Below the pieces are notes generated by a model, which ran no database searches, was not told the origin of the DNA, and saw only the letters and a program-made list of their open reading frames with translations. A program made the position numbers and the translations under genes. 64,000 nt of DNA, taken from positions 1 through 64,000 of the forward strand of contig CAMDEX010000005.1 of the NCBI GenBank assembly GCA_945897075.1, read 5' to 3'. This document shows positions 46,616 to 62,810 of the stretch, in pieces. Position 1 is the stretch's first letter. The number at the start of each line of letters is the position of its first letter. The stretch is from Litorilinea aerophila. GTDB lineage: Bacteria > Chloroflexota > Anaerolineae > Caldilineales > Caldilineaceae.

Positions 46616-46665
46616 GTCGGACTGGTAGTCCGACCAGCGCATGTCGGACTACCAGTCCAACTTAC
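46612..46665. repeat. palindrome family B between convergent genes, holding both stop codons
   Basis: Arms GTAAGTCGGACTGGTAGTCC and a nearly exact complement (one mismatch) ending CAACTTAC; each arm contains its own small palindrome GGACTGGTAGTCC. The TAA of the CDF gene (46613-46615) and the TAA of the helicase (46662-46664) lie at its two ends. Confidence 0.9.
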
Positions 46666-48791
46666 AATAACTCTTCCAGCCTTGCCCGCAACCCGTAGGT
46701 CGGAATGACCACCCGCGCCGCCTGGTAGAGTTGCTTAAATGCAGGCAGATCGATCCGGTCAATGACTGCTTGGCGGGCGATAGCTGGGGGCAGTAGGCTG
46801 TGGAAGCGGCCCAGTTCCAGCAGAGGTTCCACGCGGGGCAGCAGCCGGTGCAGCGCGCGTTGGGGCAGACCCGCATCCCAGGCAGGCAAGGACGACAGTG
46901 GGCCAGGCAAGTAGAGACAAAATTCGTTGACCGCCAACACAGATCCCCCTTCTCCGTCGAAGTAACCGTCCAGCATCTCGGCCAGCAACGCGCCGTAAAG
47001 ATCGCCCCAGAAGTGAAAGAGCCACATCCCCTCGGCCAGGGGCACGGAGAGGAGCAGATCCTCGGCCAGCCCCAGCAGCGCGGCCACCGCCCGCCCCGTC
47101 TCCAGCGGCACAGCAAAGGGCGTCGTGGCGAAACGCAGTTCGTCGTCCACTGGTCGCCCGTCCTTGCGCCGCACACCCACCCGGTAGCGATCCCGCCAGA
47201 CCACCTCTAGGATGTGACCGCCCAGCCGCAACGTCTCCCCTTCCACCTTCGAGCGGGCCACCGTCGCCAGCGTGCGCCCGGAGAAGGCGTCTACCAGCAG
47301 CAGGGGTAGAGGATCGCCGCCGATGTTGGCATAAATCTCGAACTTGTCCACCAGTTCGTCCAACTTCTCCGCGGCCCGCCATTCCCCCAGCCGACCGGCG
47401 CGCAGATAGCCCAGGCGGGCCAGATGGGTGAGGATGGCGCGCAGGCTCTCGTCGTCCACCTCTTCCGGCGCGGCCCGGCGCAGATCAGCCAGACGGATGC
47501 CGCCGGTGGGGCTTTGGGCCAGAATGCTGAAGCTCTGCTGCACCAGCACTGACGGCAAGAAGTTGTAGGTCGGACTGGCAGTCCGACTGATTTCGCCGGT
47601 CGGACTACCAGTCCGACCTACGGTTTCGGCGATCAGCGCCTGAAAGCGTATCTCTTCCAGCGCGGAGCGGGCCAGACAGAGGACACGGGTGACGCCGGTG
47701 CGCCGTCCGCCCCGGCCAATCCGCTGCTGAAACGAGGAGAGCGACGGGGGCGGGCCGATCAACGCCACTTCGTCAATGCTGCCGATGTCAATGCCCAGTT
47801 CCAAAGTGGAGGTGCTGACGCAGATGGCGACCGCGGCCGCAGCAAAGCCCTGCTCCACCTCCAGACGCAGAGCCGTGTCCAGATTCGAGTAGTGGGTGAA
47901 GAGGGCGCTCTCGAAGGGCAGATTACCGCGCAGAAAGGCGGCGGTCTGCTCCACTTCGCTGCGGCTGTTGCAAAAAATGAGCGACTTGCGCACGCCTCCC
48001 TCGCGCGTGGCGCGCAGGGCCAGGGCCATCACCAGATCGTCCAGCCCGTGCAGCGGCCAGATGTCGGCGTCCAACTCGCGCCGGCCAGGGACGCTCACAA
48101 TTTGCGGTGTACCCCCACCCGGAGCAGTAAGATAGCGGGCGGCGATACCCTCCGGGTCGGGGACGGTGGCAGAGAGGGCGATGCGTTGCAGGTACACGGC
48201 TGGCTGCCCCGTCTGCTGCTGGTGATATGTGCGGATGTTTTCGATGCGGCGCAGCAGACAGCGCAACTGATCGCCGCGCGGCCCGCCGTCCAGCAGGTGA
48301 ATCTCGTCCAGGACAATTGCCTGTAACTCTGCCAGCAGGCGGGGCGCACGGGTCAACAGCGAGTCGGTGGATTCGGGGGTAGTGATGAGTACCGACGGCG
48401 GGTTTGTGGTGGAGACCGGGCCGGTGTCGCCGCTTTTCATCGCAAAGGAGATTTCCAACTGTTCCAGCGGCAGACGCAGCCGCTCGTAGAGGTCGCGCAC
48501 CAGGGCACGTGTGGGGCAGAGGTAGAGGATGGCAAGGGAAGTGCGATTTTCAGAAGTTCGACTTTTGACAAAAGTCGAACTTCTGGTATCTCGAAAGCAA
48601 TGACGCTCAATGAGGGGGGCAATGGCGGCTTCGGTCTTGCCGCCAGCCGTGGCGGCGATGACGAGAGTGCTGTGACCGTCCAGAATGGGCGGGATGGCGG
48701 CTTCCTGCACAGGGGTAAAGCTGCCGTGGCGGGCGAAGAAGGGCGTGTACGTGCGCGGCAGGCGGGATTTGAGGGTGTAGGGGGTGGTCAT
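46662..48791 (-). CDS. Lhr/BrxHI-like DEAD/DEAH-box helicase with two in-frame palindrome insertions
   Basis: A 709-residue superfamily 2 helicase. Walker A is AATAGGKTEAA (46-56), motif Ia CPTRALVRDL, Walker B VLDEIHLLDGGPRGDQL near 160, motif III SAT near 206 and motif VI QRIGRGGRRTG near 357; the C-terminal 330 residues are an Lhr-like extension. This type includes BrxHI of type 2 BREX. Two stretches look foreign: residues about 67-83 (palindrome A, 48551-48585) between motifs I and Ia, and about 390-409 (palindrome B, 57 bases = 19 codons). Both keep the frame. It ends the minus-strand defence island. Confidence 0.88.
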   Translation of the reverse strand: MTTPYTLKSRLPRTYTPFFARHGSFTPVQEAAIPPILDGHSTLVIAATAGGKTEAAIAPLIERHCFRDTRSSTFVKSRTSENRTSLAILYLCPTRALVRDLYERLRLPLEQLEISFAMKSGDTGPVSTTNPPSVLITTPESTDSLLTRAPRLLAELQAIVLDEIHLLDGGPRGDQLRCLLRRIENIRTYHQQQTGQPAVYLQRIALSATVPDPEGIAARYLTAPGGGTPQIVSVPGRRELDADIWPLHGLDDLVMALALRATREGGVRKSLIFCNSRSEVEQTAAFLRGNLPFESALFTHYSNLDTALRLEVEQGFAAAAVAICVSTSTLELGIDIGSIDEVALIGPPPSLSSFQQRIGRGGRRTGVTRVLCLARSALEEIRFQALIAETVGRTGSPTGEISRTASPTYNFLPSVLVQQSFSILAQSPTGGIRLADLRRAAPEEVDDESLRAILTHLARLGYLRAGRLGEWRAAEKLDELVDKFEIYANIGGDPLPLLLVDAFSGRTLATVARSKVEGETLRLGGHILEVVWRDRYRVGVRRKDGRPVDDELRFATTPFAVPLETGRAVAALLGLAEDLLLSVPLAEGMWLFHFWGDLYGALLAEMLDGYFDGEGGSVLAVNEFCLYLPGPLSSLPAWDAGLPQRALHRLLPRVEPLLELGRFHSLLPPAIARQAVIDRIDLPAFKQLYQAARVVIPTYGLRARLEELL
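47565..47621. repeat. palindrome family B inserted in the helicase gene
   Basis: GTAGGTCGGACTGGCAGTCCG, a 15-base centre and the complementary right arm ending CCGACCTAC; 57 bases in all, exactly 19 codons. In the protein it reads VGRTGSPTGEISRTASPTYN. Confidence 0.92.
48551..48585. repeat. palindrome family A inserted in the helicase gene
   Basis: CAGAAGTTCGACTTTT-GAC-AAAAGTCGAACTTCTG, differing from the copy at 45181 only in the loop. In the protein it contributes the RSSTFVKSRTSE stretch. Confidence 0.92.
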
Positions 48792-48839
48792 TGGGAGATC
48801 GCAAAGGGTATATGGAATGAAGTCACATCAAATCCCTAC

Positions 48840-48868
48840 TTGCTGTATGCACGATTTGTGCGTACACT
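48840..48868 (+). promoter_or_regulatory. promoter of the BrnA-like gene with embedded operator palindrome
   Basis: TTGCTG, 17-base spacer, TACACT, then about 13 bases to the ATG, which has an AAGGACG site. The spacer is occupied by a near-perfect dyad (48844-48866), TGTATGCAC-N5-GTGCGTACA, one mismatch per arm. A repressor on this site would block RNA polymerase, as expected for an autoregulated antitoxin. Confidence 0.6.
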
Positions 48869-48881
48869 CTGTTAAGGACGA

Positions 48882-49286
48882 ATGGATATACTGCAAGAAG
48901 AGCGACGACCAGAAAGGCAACCAAACGTGAACAACAACGCTACTTTGCATGAATCGCAGACCGATTGGGAACGGTTGGCCGCTATGACCGACGAAGAAAT
49001 CGATTTTTCCGACGCGCCGGAATTGACAGACGAACAATTGGCGAAGATGCAGCCATCCGTCGAACTCTTCCCCGCCCTGGCCCAGACAGGCAAGCAGCGC
49101 ATCACAATCCGATTGGATCAGGAGATTGTGGGTTACTTCAAGCAGAACGCCGACCGTTCGGAGACGAGTTATCAGAGTCTCATCAACGCTGCACTGCGTT
49201 CATTCGTGGCCCAGGCGAAGAAAGAAACAGACCTGCGCTCACTGGTGCGGGAGGTGGTGCGGGAGGAATTGCAACGAGCGCGTTAG
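48882..49286 (+). CDS. orphan BrnA-like antitoxin / ribbon-helix-helix protein
   Basis: A 134-residue protein. The middle, MTDEEIDFSDAPELTDEQLAKM, is the acidic toxin-neutralising segment of BrnA antitoxins; it is followed by a ribbon-helix-helix domain, ITIRLDQEIVGYFKQNADRSETSYQSLINAALRSFV (about 72-108), and a charged C-terminal helix. No BrnT gene is next to it. Its stop overlaps, tail to tail by four bases, that of the PIN-domain gene on the other strand. It diverges from the helicase gene across 90 bases containing its promoter and a palindrome. It may regulate the helicase, the PIN/ATPase pair or itself (inference). Confidence 0.8.
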   Translation: MDILQEERRPERQPNVNNNATLHESQTDWERLAAMTDEEIDFSDAPELTDEQLAKMQPSVELFPALAQTGKQRITIRLDQEIVGYFKQNADRSETSYQSLINAALRSFVAQAKKETDLRSLVREVVREELQRAR

Positions 49287-49777
49287 TCGTTGTGAACAGG
49301 CGTCGGACTCTCTGAATCTGGATTGTCAAGCCAACTTTCCAATGCACTGGTATCCATACGCTCGGCAACCAGCCAATCGAAGTGTTGGCCTTTGTCATCG
49401 GTGACGAGTGTATAGCCGCGGGAGCGGGCCACGGCGCACAGCAAAATGTCAACGCAATTGCGCCGCCAGTATTCGTCGGCGCTGGTTGCGGGTTCAACTG
49501 CTGCTTTCAGGTCAGGCCAGAGAGCGGCCAGTGCTTCGGCGTCAGCAGTTGTAAATGGCAGCAGATCAAACTCGGACTGAGCCACCTGCTGTCGGATAGT
49601 ATCGATGGCGAATGTTTCGCCCCATTTGTCGGCCACTTGCCGGATGCGTTCGGCGTGAATGATTGTTGGCACGTAGACGCGTAGATGACCGGAACGGATG
49701 CGTTCGGTCAGCCGGTTGCGCAGAGAGCGACTCCAGAGGATATTCGTATCTACCAGAAGTTCATTCGTCGCCGCCAT
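49283..49777 (-). CDS. PIN-domain ribonuclease-like protein
   Basis: A 164-residue PIN domain. The first strand ELLVDTNILWS carries the leading aspartate, an internal acidic site occurs near VYVPTIIHAERI, and NCVDILLCAVARSRGYTLVTDDKG (about 123-146) contains the later metal-binding aspartates. The ATG at 49777 has GGAG five bases before it; a GTG two codons upstream is less likely. It overlaps the preceding OLD-like ATPase gene by 17 bases, so the two form a unit. PIN proteins are usually VapC-type RNases; here the partner is an ATPase rather than a small antitoxin, resembling two-gene defence units such as Septu-like pairs (inference). Confidence 0.85.
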   Translation of the reverse strand: MAATNELLVDTNILWSRSLRNRLTERIRSGHLRVYVPTIIHAERIRQVADKWGETFAIDTIRQQVAQSEFDLLPFTTADAEALAALWPDLKAAVEPATSADEYWRRNCVDILLCAVARSRGYTLVTDDKGQHFDWLVAERMDTSALESWLDNPDSESPTPVHND

Positions 49778-50918
49778 TGTCACTCCAAGCCGCTTTCATC
49801 TTATTCAAAACCTCCCCCTCTGGATAGATTTCCCAGCGACCGGCTTCACCTTTTACAAAGAAAAGCATATCCCCCCGCTGCAAGTGCAGATCGTCCAGCA
49901 CGCCCTGGTAGAGTTGAATCTGATTGAGGGAATTGAGCCGCGCCCCGGTCTTTGGCCCCAGGGGTGCGATGGCGAAATGGCGGGCGTGTCTTTGTGGGGT
50001 GGCCCGAACAACCTGTGTGCCATTCTCCGCATCAAAGGTCACATCATAAAAATTCTCGGCGAACTCGAAGTAGGGCGAGTGGGTCGAAATAAAGAGTTGT
50101 CGCAATTTTACTGCTGGCTCTCTCATCAGCTTGCGCAGGGCCGCCATCAGGTACTCCTGGTATCTGGGAGAAAGATTCATTTCAGGTTCTTCCAGGGCAA
50201 TGATGGGATAATCATTGAGAAACACTTGGCCTAAAATTAACAACAACTGCTGCGCGCCAGTGCCAAGATTTTCAACGGGCAGACGACCATCGGAACGAAT
50301 AAAACCGATGTCGATGCGATTGGTTTCTGGATTGATGGCAACATCCAGTTCACCAAAATCAAAGGGGGGTTCGGCCAGAATGCGCTTGATGGCATTCAAC
50401 TGCCGCTTGCGCGTATAATCTGAACTGTTATGCGCAAAAAAGAGAGACCGTTTCAAATTTGCATAGCTGACTTTGCTCAGGGGTGTCTCTTGATTCCAGT
50501 CTTCACCCTGAAGACGGCGAGTCGCATCTATTACATGAAAATCCGGCAGAGAAAGTATCTCCTGACGGAACAGCGACCCACTCCTGTCGATCTCTATTTC
50601 CAGACTCTTCGGAGCGTACTCGTCTATTACGACGCCAATCCGCACAGAACCTTCGTACCCCAACCGCCGAAAAGCGGGACCAAATTCAGAGAGAAGTCCT
50701 TCGGGATGGAATCTTGGACGCTCCCCGGATGGACTTGGCAATGGAAAGGCGATGGAAGATTCGGTCGTAATTGCCCATTGCCAGAGACGCAATGCCTCAA
50801 AGATGTTCGACTTCCCCACATCGTTCAACCCAAAAAAAATGTTGATATCTGACAATCCTTCTACGGTCAGATCGGCGATACTTTTGAAGCCCTGGATGTG
50901 GAATTTTTGGATACGCAT
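49761..50918 (-). CDS. AAA/OLD-like ATPase paired with PIN protein
   Basis: A 385-residue RecF-like ATPase. It starts MRIQKFHIQGFKSIADL, with Walker A FGLNDVGKSN (about 29-38), signature-like LGTGAQQLLLILG near 227 and Walker B IIALEEPEMNLSPRYQE near 249. The Walker A reads GLNDVGKS, with Asn-Asp where the other two ATPases of the window have Ala-Asn. It overlaps the PIN gene by 17 bases. Family knowledge links these ATPases to nuclease partners; this one is unusual in having a PIN domain rather than a TOPRIM partner. Confidence 0.85.
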   Translation of the reverse strand: MRIQKFHIQGFKSIADLTVEGLSDINIFFGLNDVGKSNIFEALRLWQWAITTESSIAFPLPSPSGERPRFHPEGLLSEFGPAFRRLGYEGSVRIGVVIDEYAPKSLEIEIDRSGSLFRQEILSLPDFHVIDATRRLQGEDWNQETPLSKVSYANLKRSLFFAHNSSDYTRKRQLNAIKRILAEPPFDFGELDVAINPETNRIDIGFIRSDGRLPVENLGTGAQQLLLILGQVFLNDYPIIALEEPEMNLSPRYQEYLMAALRKLMREPAVKLRQLFISTHSPYFEFAENFYDVTFDAENGTQVVRATPQRHARHFAIAPLGPKTGARLNSLNQIQLYQGVLDDLHLQRGDMLFFVKGEAGRWEIYPEGEVLNKMKAAWSDNGGDE

Positions 50919-51017
50919 ACGATTTCCTATCCCTGGATGACGGTCACATCTTTGAGACTCTTATCATTCTGCACGCGAAAACATTCAATCTTCATTTTTG
51001 CCAGCATCCATGCGCCT

Positions 51018-51443
51018 TCAATCAATAGTTGGACGCCAGCCCAGTCGAATCCAGTTACGGCGGGCATCGACAATGACGGTATTGTTCATACGGAGGGCGA
51101 TAACCGTAGCGCGACCAATCGACGTCAACCCCAGAATATGCAGGCTGGCCTCATTCCAGGTGAAATGATCGCTCCAACGGTCACGACGTGGAGAAAAGAG
51201 GGGTGTTATCTCGCCGCTCAATGGATCGACGGCTTGGATTTGTGAACCCTTAAAAAGATTGCAGAGATAGCAGGCAAAGCACAAATTTTCAAAAATCGTA
51301 GCGCCGCCTTTGCTGCGCGGTTGCAGATGATCGACTACCATTGGGTTGCCGCTGTTGGCTTGGGGAGTACCGCAATAGGCGCAACGGTGATCGTCTATAG
51401 TTACCAGGCGCTGACGCAACGCCTTCGACAGATAAATCGCCAT
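51018..51443 (-). CDS. HNH endonuclease
   Basis: A 141-residue protein with a complete HNH/Zn site: CAYC (21-24), VVDHLQPRSKGG (36-47, the DH catalytic pair), ENLCFACYLCNLFKG (52-66). Such small HNH enzymes nick or cut DNA and are common in defence islands and intron or phage contexts. It starts four bases after the stop of the 138-residue gene and is probably cotranslated with it. The C-terminal half (about 75-141) is a conserved extension I do not recognise. Confidence 0.9.
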   Translation of the reverse strand: MAIYLSKALRQRLVTIDDHRCAYCGTPQANSGNPMVVDHLQPRSKGGATIFENLCFACYLCNLFKGSQIQAVDPLSGEITPLFSPRRDRWSDHFTWNEASLHILGLTSIGRATVIALRMNNTVIVDARRNWIRLGWRPTID

Positions 51444-51447
51444 GCCG

Positions 51448-51864
51448 TCATAGTCTTTCGAAGGGGGGCAGCGCGTGACCGCGCCATTGAAGCAGCGCGG
51501 CGGCGTGGGCCTTACGCAACATAAATCGGTCAGCTTCGAATATCTGGGATTCCAGATCCAACCGATCCCCCGACGTCAGCGCATCGTCGGCATTCTTCTC
51601 TAACAACTCTTGCAGCGCAGCCATATCGGCTGTAGTACGCTGGCTGCGCGCGATGCGCCAGAGCGCGTCGTCATCAAGCCGGTCAAGCGCAGCCAAATCA
51701 GCTTGAAAAGCTGCCGGCGACTGCGACCAATCAGGCGGGCTGCCGGCGCGTACAGCGCGTAGAAGCATATCGGTCAGTGATTGCTGGGTGGCTCGGGCCG
51801 TCTGTTCCAGGCGCATATACAGTTCTTCGGGCAGAGGCAACACAACATCTATCGCTGGCATCAT
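51448..51864 (-). CDS. 138-residue protein paired with HNH nuclease, unrecognised
   Basis: The N-terminus MPAIDVVLPLPEELYMRLEQTARATQQSLTDML looks like a ribbon-helix-helix strand and two helices; the rest is helical, with two repeats of an acidic LDRLDDDALWRIAR / LTSGDRLDLESQIFEADRF type. GAGGAAG precedes the start codon (ATG at 51864, or the next ATG). Its stop is four bases before the HNH start, so the pair likely works together; an antitoxin-like or regulatory role for the HNH nuclease is possible but unproven. Confidence 0.6.
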   Translation of the reverse strand: MMPAIDVVLPLPEELYMRLEQTARATQQSLTDMLLRAVRAGSPPDWSQSPAAFQADLAALDRLDDDALWRIARSQRTTADMAALQELLEKNADDALTSGDRLDLESQIFEADRFMLRKAHAAALLQWRGHALPPFERL

Positions 51865-51947
51865 TCACTTCCTCAAGCGGCAAACCGCGTCTGTGCGTAT
51901 CGTGCGAACAGATTCAATAGGACAACAGCCCTGCCAATCATTTTACT

Positions 51948-53333
51948 TTAGCGCATCTGCCCGCGCAACTCGTCCAACAGCGCGGCCACCTCGTACTCCG
52001 GGTGCAGGTAGAGCAGATCGTACAACTCCACGGCCAGACGCACCACAGCGCGGATGTTGAGGCGGTCGTTGCGCATGCCCTGGGCCAGGTGTTCGGCCGC
52101 GCCGCGGCGCACCTGGCGCTGGCGTTCGCCCACCGCATAGCCATAGGCGCGGGCGTGATAGCCCATCACCTGCTCCAAAAATTGGCCGATCTCCTGGGGC
52201 GTGTGGTGCGGCTCCAAGGCCAGCACACGCGTCTCGTCCAGCCAATCTTCCAGGGGCAGGCGGTTGTCACTGCGGGTGACGGTGAAAAGAAAAAAGAGCG
52301 ACTGGCGGTCGCCGTAGGTCAGGGGGTAGTCCCGGCGGTGGTGCTGGGGCAGGTCAGCCGTGGAGAGACGGGAGCGTTCCTCGCCCAGCGCGGCGTGGAT
52401 CAGCGCGCTGAAAAAGAGGCTGGCTTTGGGCTGCTGGTAGGGTTTGAGCAGAGAATAGCTCTCGGCTTCGTCAATCAGTATGCACAGCCCGCTGAAACCG
52501 GCCAGACGGGCCAGCAGACTGACGCCGCTGAGCAGATAGGCGATCTGGCGGGCGTTGTTGCCCTGGCGGTAGATGGAAGGAAACTTGACTCGTTTAGGCA
52601 TAGCCCGGTTCATTGACTTCACCCGCGGCCCGCCCATCAGCCAATTCTCCCAGGCCGTCTGCTGGCGGGTGCTGGAAATGTTGCTCAGCGCGTCCAGGGC
52701 GAAGGTTAAGGGGTCGTTCTCGGTGGGGGCCAATGCGCGCACTTCGTCGCGCAACCGGGGCACACCGGCCACTGCTGCCAACAGCGGCCCCAGCCCGCGC
52801 TCGTCGCTCTCCGGGTAGCGCAGACTGCGCATCAATGCGCCGTAGATGTCGAAGCCCCGGTGGGGCGGTAACTCTTGCAGGTCCAGGCTGACGGCGGCCA
52901 CGAGAAACTTGCGTTGCAGGGCTTCCTGGGCGGTCAATTCCACAATGTGGCTCTTGCCGTAGCCATACTCGCCGATGATGGCGCGCGCATCGCCGCCGCT
53001 CTGGTGGGCCTGGACAAGGGCGCTGCTCAGGCTGGCCCGTTCGTTTTCCAAGCCAATTGTCAACTCGCGGGCGTGCTGGGCCGGGGCCACGCCCACACGC
53101 AGCGCCTCGATCAGGGTGCGCGCGTCCAGTTGGCTGGGCGTCATCGGCGTGGGGGCAAAAGCGGTCGTCGGGGCGGGCGCGGGGATGTTGGGCATCTGTC
53201 CGTTGAATTCCTGGCGGGGACGGCGGAAACGCAGACCGCTCTCAAAGCGCACCATCCACTCCTCGCCGTTGCGGTAGAGGGCGACGATCTGGCCGGGGCC
53301 GTAGGTTGGGTGTTCGACGCGGGTACCGATCAT
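51948..53333 (-). CDS. BrxD-like (DUF2791) ATPase with N-terminal SH3/CarD-like domain
   Basis: A 461-residue P-loop ATPase. Residues 1-45 (TRVEHPTYGPGQIVALY...WMVRFESG) resemble a CarD/Tudor-like small barrel. After a proline-rich linker comes a DUF2791 ATPase: GVAPAQHARELTIGL near 81, Walker A GEYGYGKSH (121-129), VAAVSLDLQELPPHRG just after, and Walker B LCILIDEAESYS near 278. DUF2791 is the BrxD family of type 2 and type 6 BREX. The start at 53333 is fixed by an ATGA overlap with the 86-residue gene. It is the more divergent of two BrxD-like ATPases in this island. Confidence 0.85.
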   Translation of the reverse strand: MIGTRVEHPTYGPGQIVALYRNGEEWMVRFESGLRFRRPRQEFNGQMPNIPAPAPTTAFAPTPMTPSQLDARTLIEALRVGVAPAQHARELTIGLENERASLSSALVQAHQSGGDARAIIGEYGYGKSHIVELTAQEALQRKFLVAAVSLDLQELPPHRGFDIYGALMRSLRYPESDERGLGPLLAAVAGVPRLRDEVRALAPTENDPLTFALDALSNISSTRQQTAWENWLMGGPRVKSMNRAMPKRVKFPSIYRQGNNARQIAYLLSGVSLLARLAGFSGLCILIDEAESYSLLKPYQQPKASLFFSALIHAALGEERSRLSTADLPQHHRRDYPLTYGDRQSLFFLFTVTRSDNRLPLEDWLDETRVLALEPHHTPQEIGQFLEQVMGYHARAYGYAVGERQRQVRRGAAEHLAQGMRNDRLNIRAVVRLAVELYDLLYLHPEYEVAALLDELRGQMR

Positions 53334-53590
53334 TGGTCTGTCAGGTGTGGAAAGTTTGTTTGTAACCAATCAAAGAAGCGTAAGACGTTCATCTCGCCTG
53401 TCAATCGTAATTCGTGACGACTGTCATGGGAATGTGAAATTTCCTCATGCAAATGTTGTCGCCAATCGTCGGCATACTGCATTTTGATCGCTTGTACATC
53501 ACTGCTATTGTCGAAGCCTGCAATCAGTTGAAGAATTCTTTCGGAGTTTCGAATCAATTCATCGAAATGTCTTCGAGCCGGCCAAGCCAC
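53330..53590 (-). CDS. small unrecognised protein coupled to the BrxD-like gene
   Basis: Up to 86 residues from GTG 53590, or 75 from a TTG at 53557 that overlaps the upstream stop (TTGA). It contains IRNSERILQLIAGF, an Asp/His-rich stretch HEEISHSHDSRHELRL and an aromatic C-terminus FFDWLQTNFP. The upstream small gene overlaps it and the BrxD-like gene follows with ATGA. The pair looks like a toxin-antitoxin module caught between the nucleotidyltransferase and the ATPase, but I do not recognise the family. Confidence 0.5.
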   Translation of the reverse strand: MAWPARRHFDELIRNSERILQLIAGFDNSSDVQAIKMQYADDWRQHLHEEISHSHDSRHELRLTGEMNVLRFFDWLQTNFPHLTDQ

Positions 53591-53883
53591 GCGGACTGCT
53601 CATCCACCAGAAATTCCCAGGTGTTGAAATCCCGCTCCCATAGCGGATGTGTGGAGCGCAGGGATTCAACGAATTCCTCATCGGTTGTGACGCGGGCATA
53701 GAACTGCTCGTAGGGCAATCCATAGACGACCTGAATCTGTGAAATCTCCCGGTGCAATTGGGCAATTCGCGCACCGATACGTTCCGTAGCGTAACGTCGT
53801 ACAGCTTCGGCCAGCCCATCCTCCGCATTGCCGAGAGATTCTAATACATTTATGTACCTTGCATCCAGCGTAATTGCCGTCAC
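53554..53883 (-). CDS. small antitoxin-like protein related to the one at 1718-1987
   Basis: A 109-residue helical, acidic protein. GTG at 53883 is chosen because GGAG lies five bases before it; ATG 24 bases upstream has nothing. AITLDARYINVLESLG opens it, and YGLPYEQFYARVTTDEEF plus the WEFLVDEQSAWLGRLE end resemble the antitoxin-like protein near 1.8 kb. It overlaps the next small gene. Role as antitoxin or folding partner is contextual. Confidence 0.55.
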   Translation of the reverse strand: MTAITLDARYINVLESLGNAEDGLAEAVRRYATERIGARIAQLHREISQIQVVYGLPYEQFYARVTTDEEFVESLRSTHPLWERDFNTWEFLVDEQSAWLGRLEDISMN

Positions 53884-53907
53884 AATTTCTCCTTCCCCAT
53901 TCCACAC

Positions 53908-54507
53908 TCAAAAATCTTCGCCCGCTTCGTCCACCACTTCTTTGAAGGCGCGTTCCAGCAAATCAGACACCGCCAACTCGGCAGCCCATTGGCGCAGATA
54001 GGCTTCGTCCAGCCGTGTGCCTTGCGTATTCATCACTCCCAAAACATCGCGCCACTGGCGCTCTGAGACTTCGCCACCCATGCGAAACCACTCCAACTTT
54101 GCCAGAATAATGTCCTCGGCGCTTGTCACCCAGGCCGTGCGCTCCGGCTCGCCCAAGAGGATTTTCCGACCGCGACGTTTCATTTGCATGCGGTCGAAGG
54201 CTCGATGCTTTGGCAAGAAGATATCTACTTTGAACATCGTCCCTAAATGGATCAGATTGAACGAACTCCGGCGCTGAATAGCGTCCAGGATGGACAACGG
54301 ATCGACGTAAAACTGTGCTTTCAGGGCGTTGGCGAATCGGCTGATCTGGTCTGGCTGAATATCGGCCACGATATCTGCATCCAATGTGTTGCGTATCACC
54401 CCGTGTGTGATACTCGCCAGAGAGCCACCAATCACATAAGGGATTCCGATCTCTTCCAGTGTAGTTGTCACCAAAAGCGTAATCTCAGACGCATTGAGTT
54501 CAGCCAT
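53908..54507 (-). CDS. nucleotidyltransferase-like protein (MNT/AbiEii-related)
   Basis: A 199-residue protein with a minimal nucleotidyltransferase core: GIPYVIGGSLASITHGVIRNTLDADIVADI (about 16-45) has the GGS loop and the DxD-type pair, and FKVDIFLPKH (about 91-100) the third acidic strand. Such proteins include AbiEii toxins and MntA-type antitoxins that AMPylate partners. The 95-residue gene upstream overlaps it by eight bases; its product is the likely partner, although it lacks a HEPN motif. Related pairs occur in many Chloroflexota and cyanobacteria as far as I recall. Confidence 0.8.
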   Translation of the reverse strand: MAELNASEITLLVTTTLEEIGIPYVIGGSLASITHGVIRNTLDADIVADIQPDQISRFANALKAQFYVDPLSILDAIQRRSSFNLIHLGTMFKVDIFLPKHRAFDRMQMKRRGRKILLGEPERTAWVTSAEDIILAKLEWFRMGGEVSERQWRDVLGVMNTQGTRLDEAYLRQWAAELAVSDLLERAFKEVVDEAGEDF

Positions 54508-54787
54508 TGCCCGCCTCTTCTTTTTGTTTAATCGGACCGTAAGCGCGCTCTGCCAGCACAGACCCCAGCAACATATCGGCCAGATAGCGCTGCAATTCTT
54601 GGGCTGTCGCGTCCGGTCGTCGTTCTCGTAGACCGCTTAGGGCTAATGTGCGCGCCATTCGATTGAGTTGAGAAGCGATCTCCAATTTTTTCCACGTCGG
54701 CGCGGAGCGGTAGAAAGCGAACTGAATCGCTTCCACCTCCGGCGTCGTGTCCATATGCATTTCCCGCCAGGTGGGCAACCGTTTCAT
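54500..54787 (-). CDS. 95-residue partner of the nucleotidyltransferase
   Basis: Starts MKRLPTWREMHMDTTPEVEA behind an AGGGGGAT ribosome site. The core, IQFAFYRSAPTWKKLEIASQLNRMARTLALSGLRERRPDA, is helical with conserved W and R positions; the C-terminus has LLGSVLAERAYGP. It overlaps the nucleotidyltransferase start. I recall similar short proteins next to such genes but no assigned function. Possibly the antitoxin or adaptor of the pair. Confidence 0.65.
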   Translation of the reverse strand: MKRLPTWREMHMDTTPEVEAIQFAFYRSAPTWKKLEIASQLNRMARTLALSGLRERRPDATAQELQRYLADMLLGSVLAERAYGPIKQKEEAGNG

Positions 54788-54798
54788 TCTATCCCCCT

Positions 54799-54848
54799 GT
54801 AACGCAAGCTGTTAGCTTGCGCCGGCGCAAGCTAACAGCTTGCGTTAC
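54799..54848. repeat. perfect 50-base palindrome behind the second BrxD-like gene
   Basis: Two complementary 25-base halves, the left one starting GTAACGCAAGCTGTTAGC, with no loop. It begins one base after the stop of the BrxD-like gene (54850) and ends 12 bases before the 95-residue gene's start, so it overlaps that gene's upstream region and may separate the two transcription units. Confidence 0.92.
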
Positions 54849-54849
54849 G

Positions 54850-56130
54850 TTAATAGGGCGGCGTCTCGCCCCCGCTCAACTCGTCCACCTGGCCGCGCAC
54901 GATGGCGATGGCCTCGTCTTCGGTGAGCAGGTGCTGGCTGCCCGCGTGCTGCCGGGCCAGTTCTGTGATGAACGCCTTCACGAAAAGCCGCCGGTGGCTC
55001 ACGTCCAGAAAGACATCGCGCGCCACATTGGCCAGAATTGCTGCGTTGGCCTGCTGGATGGGCTGGTCAAGCGCAGTGTCAAAAGCCATCTCATAGATGG
55101 GGATCAGCTTTTCGCCAATCGCCAGGAGCAGATCGTTTTCGTCCAAATCCAGATGATCCAGCGCGATCTGCGGGCTGAAGTGGTTGGCTCGGCTGAAACG
55201 GCCCGGCGCACGCACCCGCTGTTGCAGGGCCGGGTAGCGGGGCACAATGTCGTTGATAAACTGGGGCGGCACCGCGTAGACAAACATCGCACCGGGCAGG
55301 TCGTCCCGGGTGCGGTCAATGACCTCGCGCAGATTGTCCGTCGCCAGCTTCTCCGCCTTGCCGCCGATGCTGGACATGCGGTCCACTTCGTCAAAGAGCA
55401 GAATCAGCCCGCTGTAGGAGAGAGCCCGGATCGTCTGGACCAGCGAGCGCAGCATCCGAAAGGCGTTGGTGCGGCTGATCTTGCCCGTCACGCCCACCTC
55501 GCGCAGAATTTTGGTGTCGTCCGGCGTCGTGTTGGAGCCGAGCAGCCAGCGGGACAGGGAATCCAGCCGTTCGTCAAAGTCCCGGATCAGCGCATCAAAA
55601 TAGGCCAGGATGGCGGCCCGGAAGGTCAGGCTGTCGATGGCCGTGGATTCCAGCGTATCCACCAGCCCCCGGTAGTTGGGGTGGGTCAGCGCATCCAGCG
55701 TCGGCGGGCCGCCCAGCACCCGTTCCAGCGTCCCTTCCAGAAAACGGGGCAGACCCGTCTCGTCGGAGATTTCCTCGTTCTCCTCGTGCCAGATCAGATT
55801 GCGCGCCACTGCCGCGTAGACCAGCCGCTGGTCGTTGTAGGGCGTCTCTACCGGGCTGAGATCGACTTTTGCCACGGCAAACCCTCTGCTCCAGGCCCGG
55901 TCGCGCAGACAGTAGAGAAAGTGGGATTTGCCGCTGCCGTAATCCCCCACCACCATTTTGTACGTTCCGCCGCCGTCCTGCAGATAGGAGGAGAGATAAT
56001 ACTCGTCCAGCGCGTCGAGCAGGGAGGTGTTGCCCGCGTTGAAATGTTGCACACCCCGGGCCGGGGGCGTACCTGTGCTGCCCAACACTTCCACAATGTG
56101 GCGGGCGAGGGGGCGGGAGAGGGTAGTCAT
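54850..56130 (-). CDS. BrxD-like (DUF2791) ATPase, second copy
   Basis: A 426-residue P-loop ATPase starting MTTLSRPLARHIVEVLGS with AGGAG before it. TPPARGVQHFNAG (21-33) and KMVVGDYGSGKSHFLYCL (58-75, Walker A GDYGSGKS) then AVAKVDLSPVETPYNDQ follow the BrxD pattern closely; Walker B is GLILLFDEVDRM near 240. In type 2 BREX, BrxD acts with BrxHI helicase and PglXYZW. Here it follows the 294-residue gene (after a STRR-like repeat) and precedes the nucleotidyltransferase pair. It is clearly distinct in sequence from the BrxD-like protein at 51948, so the two probably form a hetero-complex or act in sequence. Confidence 0.88.
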   Translation of the reverse strand: MTTLSRPLARHIVEVLGSTGTPPARGVQHFNAGNTSLLDALDEYYLSSYLQDGGGTYKMVVGDYGSGKSHFLYCLRDRAWSRGFAVAKVDLSPVETPYNDQRLVYAAVARNLIWHEENEEISDETGLPRFLEGTLERVLGGPPTLDALTHPNYRGLVDTLESTAIDSLTFRAAILAYFDALIRDFDERLDSLSRWLLGSNTTPDDTKILREVGVTGKISRTNAFRMLRSLVQTIRALSYSGLILLFDEVDRMSSIGGKAEKLATDNLREVIDRTRDDLPGAMFVYAVPPQFINDIVPRYPALQQRVRAPGRFSRANHFSPQIALDHLDLDENDLLLAIGEKLIPIYEMAFDTALDQPIQQANAAILANVARDVFLDVSHRRLFVKAFITELARQHAGSQHLLTEDEAIAIVRGQVDELSGGETPPY

Positions 56131-56147
56131 TGGGTAAGACTCCTGTT

Positions 56148-56212
56148 GGGGGCTGGGGACTGGGGATCGGGGACTGGAGATTCCCAATCCCCAATCCCCA
56201 GTCCCCAATCCC
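56148..56212. repeat. CCCCAAT/GGGGACT inverted repeat in the BrxD-like operon
   Basis: Heptamer words of the CCCCART type on both arms, between the 294-residue gene (stop at 56214) and the BrxD-like gene. Same words as in the proB-proA gap. Confidence 0.85.
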
Positions 56213-56213
56213 G

Positions 56214-57098
56214 CTATTCTTCAAACGTAATATCGCCGTAAAAATCCCCGCTCAGCGCAGAGGAGGGCACCCAGACGCTGCGCGCTGCGCTTTCGGCCTG
56301 GCTTTTGGTGGCGACGCCCAGACGCAGCCGATAGGACTTGCCGTCCACCGCGACGGTCGCGCCGGCTTCGTTGGCCAGCACCAGATCGCGCACGAAGAAG
56401 GGACGTTCGTAATCCTTGAATGTGCCGCGCGAAGGGGCGTTCCAGAAGCGGGCGACCTGGCGGTTGAGTACCAATTTGGCGTAAGTCTCCACCAGATTGA
56501 TGCGATTGCCTTGCGGGCGACGACCGGATTTCTCGGTCTTTTCGGTCATCAGATCGTTCCAGGCTTTGTAAAGATCGGCCAGAAAAGCGGGCGTCTCGTC
56601 CTTGCGTTCGAGAATCGTTTTGCGCTGCTGGTCATAGGCTTTGATAATGCCGCCCAGAGAAAGGGGCAGGGGGTTTGTCAACGCCTCTTTGCCATAGAAC
56701 CACTGGGCTTTGCGATTGGCGATATCAATTTGCAGCACCAGCCGGTCCACCACCAGGACGGGCGGGCGACCTTCGACTTCTTGTCCACGCGCCTCGAAGC
56801 TCTCCTTCAGGTCACGCGCAAACTGGAAGGCCAGGCTGTCGAGAGCTGCTTGGGTGGCCGCGCCAAAGGCGACGGTGGCGCTGTCCAGGGCCGCGTCTTG
56901 CAGGCCCGCGGCTTTCACCAGTCCCACAGCTTCCTGCAATTTTGCCAGCGACTTTTGCATCGGCAGCGCGTCCAGTTTTTCCTGGCCCGCCAGCCGGGCC
57001 GCCGCGATCAGCGCGCTGCTGGCTGCTTTCAACGCTTTGAATTTGGGGTCGGTCTCGGCTTGGCCAGCCTGCAATGCCAGAATGAGTTCTTCGTTCAC
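56214..57098 (-). CDS. 294-residue protein of unknown family, next to BrxD-like ATPase
   Basis: Starts at GTG 57098 with AAAGG upstream. The N-terminal half (to about 120) is alanine-rich and helical, with LIAAARLAGQEKLDALPMQKSLAKL. A beta-rich middle follows: RPPVLVVDRLVLQIDIANRKAQWFYG (about 112-137), then a helical stretch and ARFWNAPSRGTFKDYERPFFVRDLV near 217, and a final strand set with DGKSYRLRLGVATKSQAE. I see no nuclease, ATPase or methylase motif. Its position directly upstream of the BrxD-like gene makes it the most likely uncharacterised core component of the putative system. Confidence 0.6.
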   Translation of the reverse strand: MNEELILALQAGQAETDPKFKALKAASSALIAAARLAGQEKLDALPMQKSLAKLQEAVGLVKAAGLQDAALDSATVAFGAATQAALDSLAFQFARDLKESFEARGQEVEGRPPVLVVDRLVLQIDIANRKAQWFYGKEALTNPLPLSLGGIIKAYDQQRKTILERKDETPAFLADLYKAWNDLMTEKTEKSGRRPQGNRINLVETYAKLVLNRQVARFWNAPSRGTFKDYERPFFVRDLVLANEAGATVAVDGKSYRLRLGVATKSQAESAARSVWVPSSALSGDFYGDITFEE

Positions 57099-60698: not shown

Positions 60699-61343
60699 CT
60701 ATCTCACCTGATTCCACTGGTGAGATTCTATCGCTGCCCTAATTTCCTCTTCTAAGGCATTGAAGGCGTTCAGACGCCGGAGAGCCGAAAAGTCATGGAT
60801 ATTCTCACTCACCCGTCGCGCGTAGGCATGCACAGGAAAGCGACGTTTGCGCCGTCTGTTGAGATCGCAGACCTGTGTCAACAGATCGTAGAGAATATCT
60901 TTGGGGTTCGCCAGCTCCTCCAGTTGACTGATAGGGGGCATGGCGAGCTTGCCGCTGTAACGTCTGTTGCCTGCTGCCCAACGAAGCGCGTCCTCATCAA
61001 TTAGCAGCCAGGCTTCTTGCATACGAACCGGTACTACACAAACTACAGGCGGTGATGCCGCTAGATCACTGAGCGCACGCCTGATCTCATCAACACGCAT
61101 CTCCCGGCTCTGTGATTCCGCATCGCGATGGACAAAGAGCAGATTGCAAGGATAGACCTCCAGACTGATACGGATTTTGTCAGACAGACTGGGGCGTTTG
61201 GGTAGCTGTATCGAACCTAAATCAGCCCAGGCAGAGCGAATGGACAGCGTGACTCCGTTCTCAACCAGCAGCCAATCGAGTATGGGTAGCAGACTTGCAT
61301 CCGAACTGCCATCGGATACGAGTGTGTAACGGAGATCGTTCAT
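60699..61343 (-). CDS. DUF4276-like (TOPRIM) protein, second copy in the window
   Basis: A 214-residue protein. RYTLVSDGSSDASLLP near the start is the strand plus DG(S)SD variant of the EGxTE motif; PCNLLFVHRDAESQSREMR near 70 carries a His-Arg-Asp-Ala-Glu cluster; and VVPVRMQEAWLLIDEDAL near 102 is the family's most distinctive segment. ATG at 61343, or a GTG just before, follows the AAA gene's stop by three to six bases. With the ATPase it repeats the arrangement seen at the left edge. A nuclease role is likely but inferred. Confidence 0.83.
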   Translation of the reverse strand: MNDLRYTLVSDGSSDASLLPILDWLLVENGVTLSIRSAWADLGSIQLPKRPSLSDKIRISLEVYPCNLLFVHRDAESQSREMRVDEIRRALSDLAASPPVVCVVPVRMQEAWLLIDEDALRWAAGNRRYSGKLAMPPISQLEELANPKDILYDLLTQVCDLNRRRKRRFPVHAYARRVSENIHDFSALRRLNAFNALEEEIRAAIESHQWNQVR

Positions 61344-61349
61344 CACATC

Positions 61350-62810
61350 CTACCCATCCACGTTTTCAATCTGGAGACTCGTCTGTAGGCCATTGTGGGG
61401 AACCGGATTCAGATAGGCCAGGAGTCGGCCTTTCATCACAGGTAAATCCTCTGGGGATGTATCTGCGCGCCAAGAATTCTGCAACCATTCAAAGATAGTT
61501 CTCTTGTAGCGCTGCCTATTTCTGATAGCTTGCACTGTACTCGCGATGAGCAGACTATCCGGTGGAACGAGATTGACAACAGTTGGCGAATGGGTGTTGA
61601 TGATTATCTGACGGAGAGGATTGTCCTCGGCCACGGGCATGTCTACGTCAACAGCTATGTCCTGAAGTAGCTGAAGAATCGCCGGAATTCGGGACGGATG
61701 AATGCCGTTCTCCGGTTCTTCCAAACAAATGACATCGTGAGAAGTCCGATCCGATTCCAAGACTGCCAAGGCAAGAAAGCGCAAAGTTCCATCCGAAAGC
61801 TCGCGGGCAGGATAGATCGTTCCATTCCTATCCTTCACTTGAAGTGTCAGCAATTGACGCTTCTCATCCCGGTCAATACGGACTTCGTACACATCATCAA
61901 TCAATTCCGATAGCCTGAACGCCACTTGTTCATAGATCCAGCTATCTTCCCCCAGCGAGCCATTGACCGAGCCATTGAAGGATCGATCAGACGCACGAGC
62001 CAGATAATAGAGTGTGGCAGGAAGATGAGAGCCATCGGAGTCTATTCCTGGCGGTGTCCGAATATCATCGGGGCTGCGCAACGCAGCGGGTTCTAATTGG
62101 AGCAACCGCCAGGACTGCATCTCGCGCCGGGCAAGAAGCGCAGTTGGGCTTTCGGCAGCATTGACAGTTGAAAGAACCGTGCGCGGCAAATTCTCCGCTA
62201 GAAATGACTTCGGGCGTCCTCCACCTCCACCTTCTTGACTCAATTTGACTATCCGATTGCCTTCCTTCTCATCGGTCGGAATGAAAGTCGAAATAAAAGA
62301 TGAAGTTTTCCGACCTTTAACTACTGAGCGTCGCCATTCCTTTGCGCTGTGGGGAAATCTTAAATGCTTGGCTGCATCACTGATATTGATCTGTTCCAAT
62401 TCTTCCCTTAGCAGTTCAAAAGGGCTAAAGGCAATTAAGTCGTCATCAGAGCGAAAGGCCAATTCGAGAGTATATTTTACAAATGTACTGCTGGCTGTGG
62501 CTAACTGACCCAAGTCATCTACGCCTTCTGGAGGGATAATCATTTCCGCCGAAAAAAGCATTGACCCGTCATACTCGTTGCCAACCCGGTGAAAGAGACT
62601 CTGGACCGATGACATCTTTTTATCGTCGCCACGAATGGAGGCCGCCGCGTTCACAAAAGTATCGCTTGCCAACCGGCTCAAAAATTGAATCGCGTCGAAA
62701 AGATTCGATTTGCCTGTCCCGTTCGCGCCGGCAATGCAAGTAAAAGGGCCAAAGCGAACGTCCACATCCACCAGATTCTTGAAACCGGATACTTTCAAAC
62801 GCGTAAGCAT
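61350..62810 (-). CDS. AAA/OLD-like ATPase paired with DUF4276 protein, second copy
   Basis: A 486-residue RecF-type ATPase starting MLTRLKVSGFKNLVDVDVRF. Walker A is GANGTGKSNLF (29-39), the signature LSDGTLRFLAL near 341 and Walker B VICLEEPENGIHPSRIP near 357; SPTVVNLVPPDSLL follows as the H-loop region. It is 120 residues longer than the ATPase at 284-1381, mainly by a middle insertion (about 150-260). It lies 21 bases after the PD-(D/E)XK gene and 3-6 bases before its DUF4276 partner. Confidence 0.88.
   Translation of the reverse strand: MLTRLKVSGFKNLVDVDVRFGPFTCIAGANGTGKSNLFDAIQFLSRLASDTFVNAAASIRGDDKKMSSVQSLFHRVGNEYDGSMLFSAEMIIPPEGVDDLGQLATASSTFVKYTLELAFRSDDDLIAFSPFELLREELEQINISDAAKHLRFPHSAKEWRRSVVKGRKTSSFISTFIPTDEKEGNRIVKLSQEGGGGGRPKSFLAENLPRTVLSTVNAAESPTALLARREMQSWRLLQLEPAALRSPDDIRTPPGIDSDGSHLPATLYYLARASDRSFNGSVNGSLGEDSWIYEQVAFRLSELIDDVYEVRIDRDEKRQLLTLQVKDRNGTIYPARELSDGTLRFLALAVLESDRTSHDVICLEEPENGIHPSRIPAILQLLQDIAVDVDMPVAEDNPLRQIIINTHSPTVVNLVPPDSLLIASTVQAIRNRQRYKRTIFEWLQNSWRADTSPEDLPVMKGRLLAYLNPVPHNGLQTSLQIENVDG

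Follow-up and report, generated by a model that had tools for sequence, protein, structure and literature searches.

The window analysed here is a stretch of 64,000 nucleotides from Litorilinea aerophila, a member of the Chloroflexota (contig CAMDEX010000005.1). Its subject is a cassette of four genes, here called X, A, B and H, encoding a protein of no known family, two AAA+ ATPases and a helicase. All four are real genes, lie on the minus strand and have the coordinates given in the original prediction, which was made from the letters of the window alone. From the first gene of the cassette onwards they are:

56214-57098, minus strand: X, 294 amino acids, GTG start, first cassette gene; no known family.
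54850-56130, minus strand: ATPase A, 426 amino acids, BrxD/SngB-like AAA+ protein; PF10923.
51948-53333, minus strand: ATPase B, 461 amino acids, N-terminal Tudor domain and AAA+ domain resembling the origin recognition complex (ORC)/Cdc6 proteins; PF10923.
46662-48791, minus strand: H, 709 amino acids, Lhr/BrxHI/SngC-like superfamily 2 (SF2) helicase.

Both ATPases belong to the Pfam family BrxC_BrxD (PF10923, formerly predicted here as DUF2791; curated cut-off, 22.2 bits), which A matches with E=1.6e-43 (149.6 bits) and B with E=1.5e-27 (97 bits). Their Walker motifs are intact (Walker A GDYGSGKS and Walker B LLFDEVDR in A; Walker A GEYGYGKS in B). A also matches the PADLOC model of SngB (1.1e-23), and the NCBIfam model of BrxD gives 127 and 74 bits for the two ATPases, below its cut-off of 350 bits. 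Residues ~1-43 of B form a Tudor domain of the PcrA/UvrD type, homologous to a solved UvrD Tudor (PDB 7egt, E=4.3e-5; 4c2t, 0.0012); the Pfam profile PcrA_UvrD_tudor matches weakly in five of 39 members. The CarD-like N-terminus originally proposed for B was dropped in favour of this match. The Tudor domain of PcrA binds RNA polymerase and other partners, including UvrB, via a helicase interaction motif (PMC8318588). The ATPase part of B is well modelled (mean predicted local distance difference test score (pLDDT) of 89.8), and the best PDB matches to the model in Foldseek are ORC subunits (top match, Drosophila ORC, 7jk6, 1e-4), with low TM-scores. These predicted similarities are in keeping with the placement of BrxD in the ORC/Cdc6 class (PMC12839542).

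The best PADLOC models for H are BrxHI (1.3e-70) and SngC (2.9e-63), and its helicase motifs are intact (ATAGGKTE, DEIH, SAT, QRIGRGGRR). X has no match in Pfam, NCBIfam or PADLOC, and 49 aligned relatives of X have no Pfam match above chance level. Its AlphaFold model (pLDDT 97; predicted TM-score (pTM) 0.86) places three long helices at the N-terminus, followed by a C-terminal alpha/beta region, and has no structural match in the PDB or in the viral database BFVD at E<=1e-3. Kinship of X with the TerB protein SngA was considered and rejected (profile-profile probability, 0.1%). All four genes are under purifying selection, with ratios of non-synonymous to synonymous substitution rates (dN/dS) of 0.07-0.23 against relatives and 0.07-0.18 against congeners.

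A profile of A built from three loci retrieved 79 loci from 84,980 genomes, and 61 of these (L017-L077) belong to the X-A-B-H group. Their hosts are nearly all Chloroflexota; one is an Acidobacteriota (L076) and one a bin labelled Trueperaceae (L053). Where contigs reach far enough, the gene immediately before A is X in all 60 loci, which bears out the grouping of the 294-residue protein with the ATPases; B comes after A in 45 of 46 loci, and 30 of 31 contain H. In many loci neighbouring cassette genes overlap by 4 bp or sit a few bases apart, and in compact loci such as L037 and L066 they overlap or are separated by 2-6 bp; co-transcription as a single unit is therefore very probable. Across 32 loci the four proteins diverge in parallel (correlation of pairwise distances, 0.84-0.90), a pattern to which shared host ancestry contributes and for which it could suffice alone. 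At L070 (8892-12662), X, A and B are followed by ordinary genes.

A profile of X gave relatives from Acidobacteriota (10 of 247 genomes) and Chloroflexota (17 of 400), whose neighbourhoods we inspected over 12-15 kb. The genes X-A-B-H stand in identical order in L131-L137, L140, L141 and L143, and L142 holds X-A-B. HR28 (L081), a distant member of the Chloroflexota, also carries X-A-B-H, with a B that has no Tudor domain; this locus coincides with G126 of the same phylum. In two Acidobacteriota genomes an X-like protein of 338 amino acids has no ATPase or helicase beside it (L138:997-2013 and L139:3125-4141). Of the 396 genomes of the window's class, 37 carry A, including five of six in its own genus and two of the 12 listed in genus g184; this patchiness, within genera too, marks the cassette as accessory. 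IMG/VR viral contigs scanned with X and A contained zero relatives and hence gave no sign of phage carriage. X-A-B-H is a distinct four-gene system, vertically kept and patchily distributed.

In a maximum-likelihood tree, A forms one clade (support 100/99) and B another (99/97), which confirms that the two ATPases are distinct paralogues. B and the second ATPase of HR28 are set apart (99/95) from A, SngB and the BrxD of bacteriophage exclusion (BREX) systems, so B is no recent duplicate of A. SngB groups with BREX BrxD, outside clade A. H likewise forms one clade (100/100), apart from BrxHI and SngC, and SngC joins BrxHI. The separation of the named groups was kept in all 200 bootstrap trees; the deep joins are uncertain because some branches are very long. 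With clades of their own and a fixed gene order across two phyla, the four genes are not the 'reduced' BREX system that had been suggested.

The absence of a BREX methylase and of PglZ, also part of the original prediction, was upheld. Neither of the two conditions named there as refuting it came true: no PglX or PglZ lies on the contig beyond the window, and DUF2791-type ATPases do accompany this helicase in other genomes. The contig is 68,995 bp long and extends 5 kb past the window. No homologues of PglX, BrxC/PglY, PglZ or SngA occur in those 5 kb or in any of the other X-A-B-H loci, and none of the PglX methylase or BrxC/PglY in the window or the rest of its contig. The PglZ profile PF08665 and the TerB profile PF05099 each gave zero matches across the 6.38 Mb assembly, the PglZ proteins of L078 and L079 as queries matched nothing in any X-A-B-H locus, and no such locus has a TerB. 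No PglW-like gene was recognised, and the cassette contains none of ~1,400 amino acids, the size of PglW, for which no dedicated query was run. As the assembly is ~95% complete with 8.8% contamination, the absence of PglZ and TerB is strong, not absolute.

Several other Chloroflexota families carry a sister cassette, X'-A'-B'-Y-SNF2 (L144-L150; for example, L150:996-6957), in which A' has no P-loop, B' has one, and Y, of 190 amino acids, precedes an SNF2 helicase. An Mrr_cat nuclease domain is fused to the C-terminus of this helicase in L146 and L150. No methylase adjoins the sister cassettes inspected. This five-gene arrangement is apparently undescribed. Since it replaces H by SNF2, X and the paired ATPases are the constant part and the helicase the exchangeable one.

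In the window and in many other loci, further genes (0.3-3.5 kb) intervene between cassette members. In the window, the genes that separate B from its cassette neighbours H and A are such insertions and lie outside the conserved set:

53554-54787, minus strand: insert between A and B; two small proteins and a 199-amino-acid protein, not conserved in the cassette.
48882-51864, mixed strands: insert between B and H; BrnA/CopG-type antitoxin-like protein, PIN protein, AAA_15/AAA_21 ATPase, HNH endonuclease and ribbon-helix-helix (RHH)-like protein.

The 199-amino-acid protein has a weak, below-cut-off match to a nucleotidyltransferase family, DUF6036. In the B-H insert the antitoxin-like and PIN genes lie on opposite strands, and the small RHH-like gene accompanies the HNH endonuclease. 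Inserts vary from one close relative to the next: L020 and L023 each have just a part of the window's PIN/AAA/HNH set, L020 the HNH pair and L023 the region of the AAA gene. Recognisable inserts, scanned like the flanks in batches through a pseudo-alignment of unrelated proteins, are mostly of defence or toxin-antitoxin families in a simple tally of Pfam and PADLOC assignments: AAA_21, DUF4276, type II methyltransferases, the AHJR restriction endonuclease, Uma2, HNH, HEPN/NT, HigB, YoeB, PIN and BrnA. Type II DNA methyltransferases and their neighbours lie between B and H at L031 (12766-14627), L034 (13286-15330), L052 (13765-15349) and L042 (12813-16170), and these four inserts are probably whole restriction-modification units. 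The pattern resembles the nesting of defence genes inside defence systems that Payne et al. 2024 (cited in PMC12629846) reported for other systems.

Among known systems that lack a methylase, the nearest is Shango, which the original prediction did not mention and which protects P. aeruginosa against phage (PMC10250203). Shango consists of the TerB protein SngA, the ATPase SngB and the helicase SngC, and it shares with X-A-B-H a variable first gene, a BrxD-type ATPase followed by a BrxHI/Lhr-type helicase, and the lack of a methylase. Unlike Shango, X-A-B-H begins with X, which is unrelated to SngA, and has two ATPases, one of them Tudor-bearing; homologues of SngB and SngC do occur in order, but A and H fall in clades of their own. 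BREX type 2, or Pgl (PglW, PglX, PglY/BrxC, PglZ, BrxD, BrxHI), has in common with X-A-B-H the BrxD-BrxHI dyad, a tight pair for which a helicase-loading role has been proposed (PMC12839542). X-A-B-H has no PglX, BrxC/PglY or PglZ and adds ATPase B and X, and its ATPases and helicase are homologues of BrxD and BrxHI but not orthologues, given the sub-cut-off BrxD scores and the separate clades. The BREX-Related (BR) systems (Rakesh and Krishnan 2026, PMC12839542) resemble the sister cassette in joining a restriction-type nuclease to the C-terminus of an SNF2 helicase, but DUF499 and a methylase form their basis where the sister cassette has X and paired BrxD-type ATPases. ARMADA, TALON and other YprA-helicase systems (PMC12458937) are also defence operons with an SF2 helicase, and TALON too is largely found in Chloroflexota; their partners, however, are a methylase, TPR-CSD, TBP and NERD, and BrxD, Shango and Lhr are not named in that paper. 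The X-A-B-H gene set is described neither there nor in the BR paper, and we found no description of it in the open literature, a coverage outside which lie subscription papers and most preprints. X-A-B-H belongs with the systems of the BrxD-BrxHI type, among which it ranks alongside Shango, and is probably an undescribed antiviral system related to, yet distinct from, both BREX and Shango.

The explanation that best fits the evidence overall, and that we think probably correct, is that X-A-B-H acts against invading DNA without self-methylation, the paired ATPases and X loading the helicase; the methylation-independent DNA-processing or defence module of the original prediction fits best. Taken separately, the defence role has a reasonably good chance of being right. 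It is argued for by the nearest relatives, which are anti-phage (Shango, PMC10250203; the BrxD-BrxHI pair of BREX type 2, PMC12839542), by embedded genes drawn largely from defence and toxin-antitoxin families, by the patchy occurrence, and by a sister cassette with an Mrr nuclease. The helicase-loading mechanism is put forward more tentatively, at somewhat less than an even chance; we infer the formation of a complex, a partner for the Tudor domain and the role of X. A and B, as ORC/Cdc6-like AAA+ ATPases of the BrxC/D family, would come together on DNA in a mixed ring or as a loader. X, made just before A, might be an adaptor or sensor that directs or gates the placement of this loader, and the Tudor domain of B could dock on a protein partner, as that of PcrA/UvrD docks on RNA polymerase or UvrB. 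The loader would then place H, as suggested for BrxD and BrxHI (PMC12839542), and unwinding or translocation by H may block phage or plasmid DNA, or make it accessible to nucleases of the host or of embedded genes. Host DNA could be spared without methylation if the system took its cue from, for instance, DNA ends, replication forks or R-loops.

Some observations weigh against this explanation. The core cassette has no nuclease, H is missing from L070 although X, A and B are present, and the X-like protein of L138 and L139 (Acidobacteriota) stands without a neighbouring ATPase. The 89 flanking proteins are mainly encoded by transport, hydrolase, RecJ and sugar-metabolism genes, so the cassette lies outside large defence islands; its location is syntenic within the genus, and AAA_21 is not confined to the inserts, as four of the flanking proteins also belong to it. 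One alternative is a housekeeping module of the Chloroflexota serving DNA repair, replication or transcription conflicts, in the manner of the Lhr or PcrA/UvrD pathways. The Lhr-type helicase, the UvrD-type Tudor domain and the ORC/Cdc6-like ATPases agree with this, as do strong purifying selection, synteny in the genus with recJ alongside in the window and L020, and presence in five of six genomes of the genus. We nevertheless consider it unlikely, because ~90% of the genomes of the class lack the cassette and it is patchy inside genera, restriction and toxin-antitoxin genes split it in many loci, its nearest families are defence proteins, and the sister cassette has a restriction-type nuclease.

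That X-A-B-H is a divergent Shango, with A as SngB, H as SngC and X in place of SngA, seems less likely still. The PADLOC matches of A and H and the shared order of a variable protein, a BrxD-type ATPase and a BrxHI-type helicase speak for it, but TerB is absent from the genome and from all X-A-B-H loci, X and SngA are unrelated, a second ATPase is always present, and SngB and SngC join BREX BrxD and BrxHI in the tree, not A or H; strict membership is refuted. Loader and helicase logic and a patchy distribution would also be found in a replication-initiation or transfer module of an integrated mobile element, in which initiator ATPases load a helicase. With zero relatives in viral contigs, no prominent integrase or transfer family among the flanking proteins and the same chromosomal location in congeners, this is very improbable.

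To our knowledge, the function of the BrxD-BrxHI pair of BREX type 2 is not known. Shango and X-A-B-H indicate that a pair of this kind works in systems without a methylase or PglZ, and X-A-B-H, with four genes and a single first gene of no known fold, is compact enough to test how DNA passes from an ORC/Cdc6-like ATPase to a defence helicase, and bears on how a system free of methyl marks spares host DNA. The sister cassette, with an SNF2 helicase or SNF2-Mrr fusion for H, is a natural swap experiment. Nearly all carriers are Chloroflexota and Acidobacteriota that have not been cultured and about whose immunity little is known. A bolder reading, conceivable but short of an even chance, is that X has a new fold and founds a methylation-independent immune family, in which X and an asymmetric pair of ORC/Cdc6-like ATPases would be a programmable loader for exchangeable helicases or helicase-nucleases; the asymmetry would consist of a Tudor-bearing ATPase in one branch and, in the other, of an ATPase that has lost its P-loop.

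The gap between X and A (56131-56213) contains a GC-rich inverted repeat (GGGGATTGGGGA... TCCCCAGTCCCC). The same assembly contains another X at a contig edge (L016:303-1220; G000, contig C132), with 91% identity and the start of an A gene adjoining it; this is either a second copy or bin contamination (8.8%). Other PF10923 matches in the genome (C27, C49, C33 and C166) are weak and fall in frames of ~1,000-1,200 amino acids. At 60699-62810 in the window, next to recJ and 3.6 kb upstream of X, a 486-amino-acid AAA_21 ATPase, which matches PADLOC HEC-01A with 5.1e-94, and a 215-amino-acid partner are a candidate second defence pair near the cassette.

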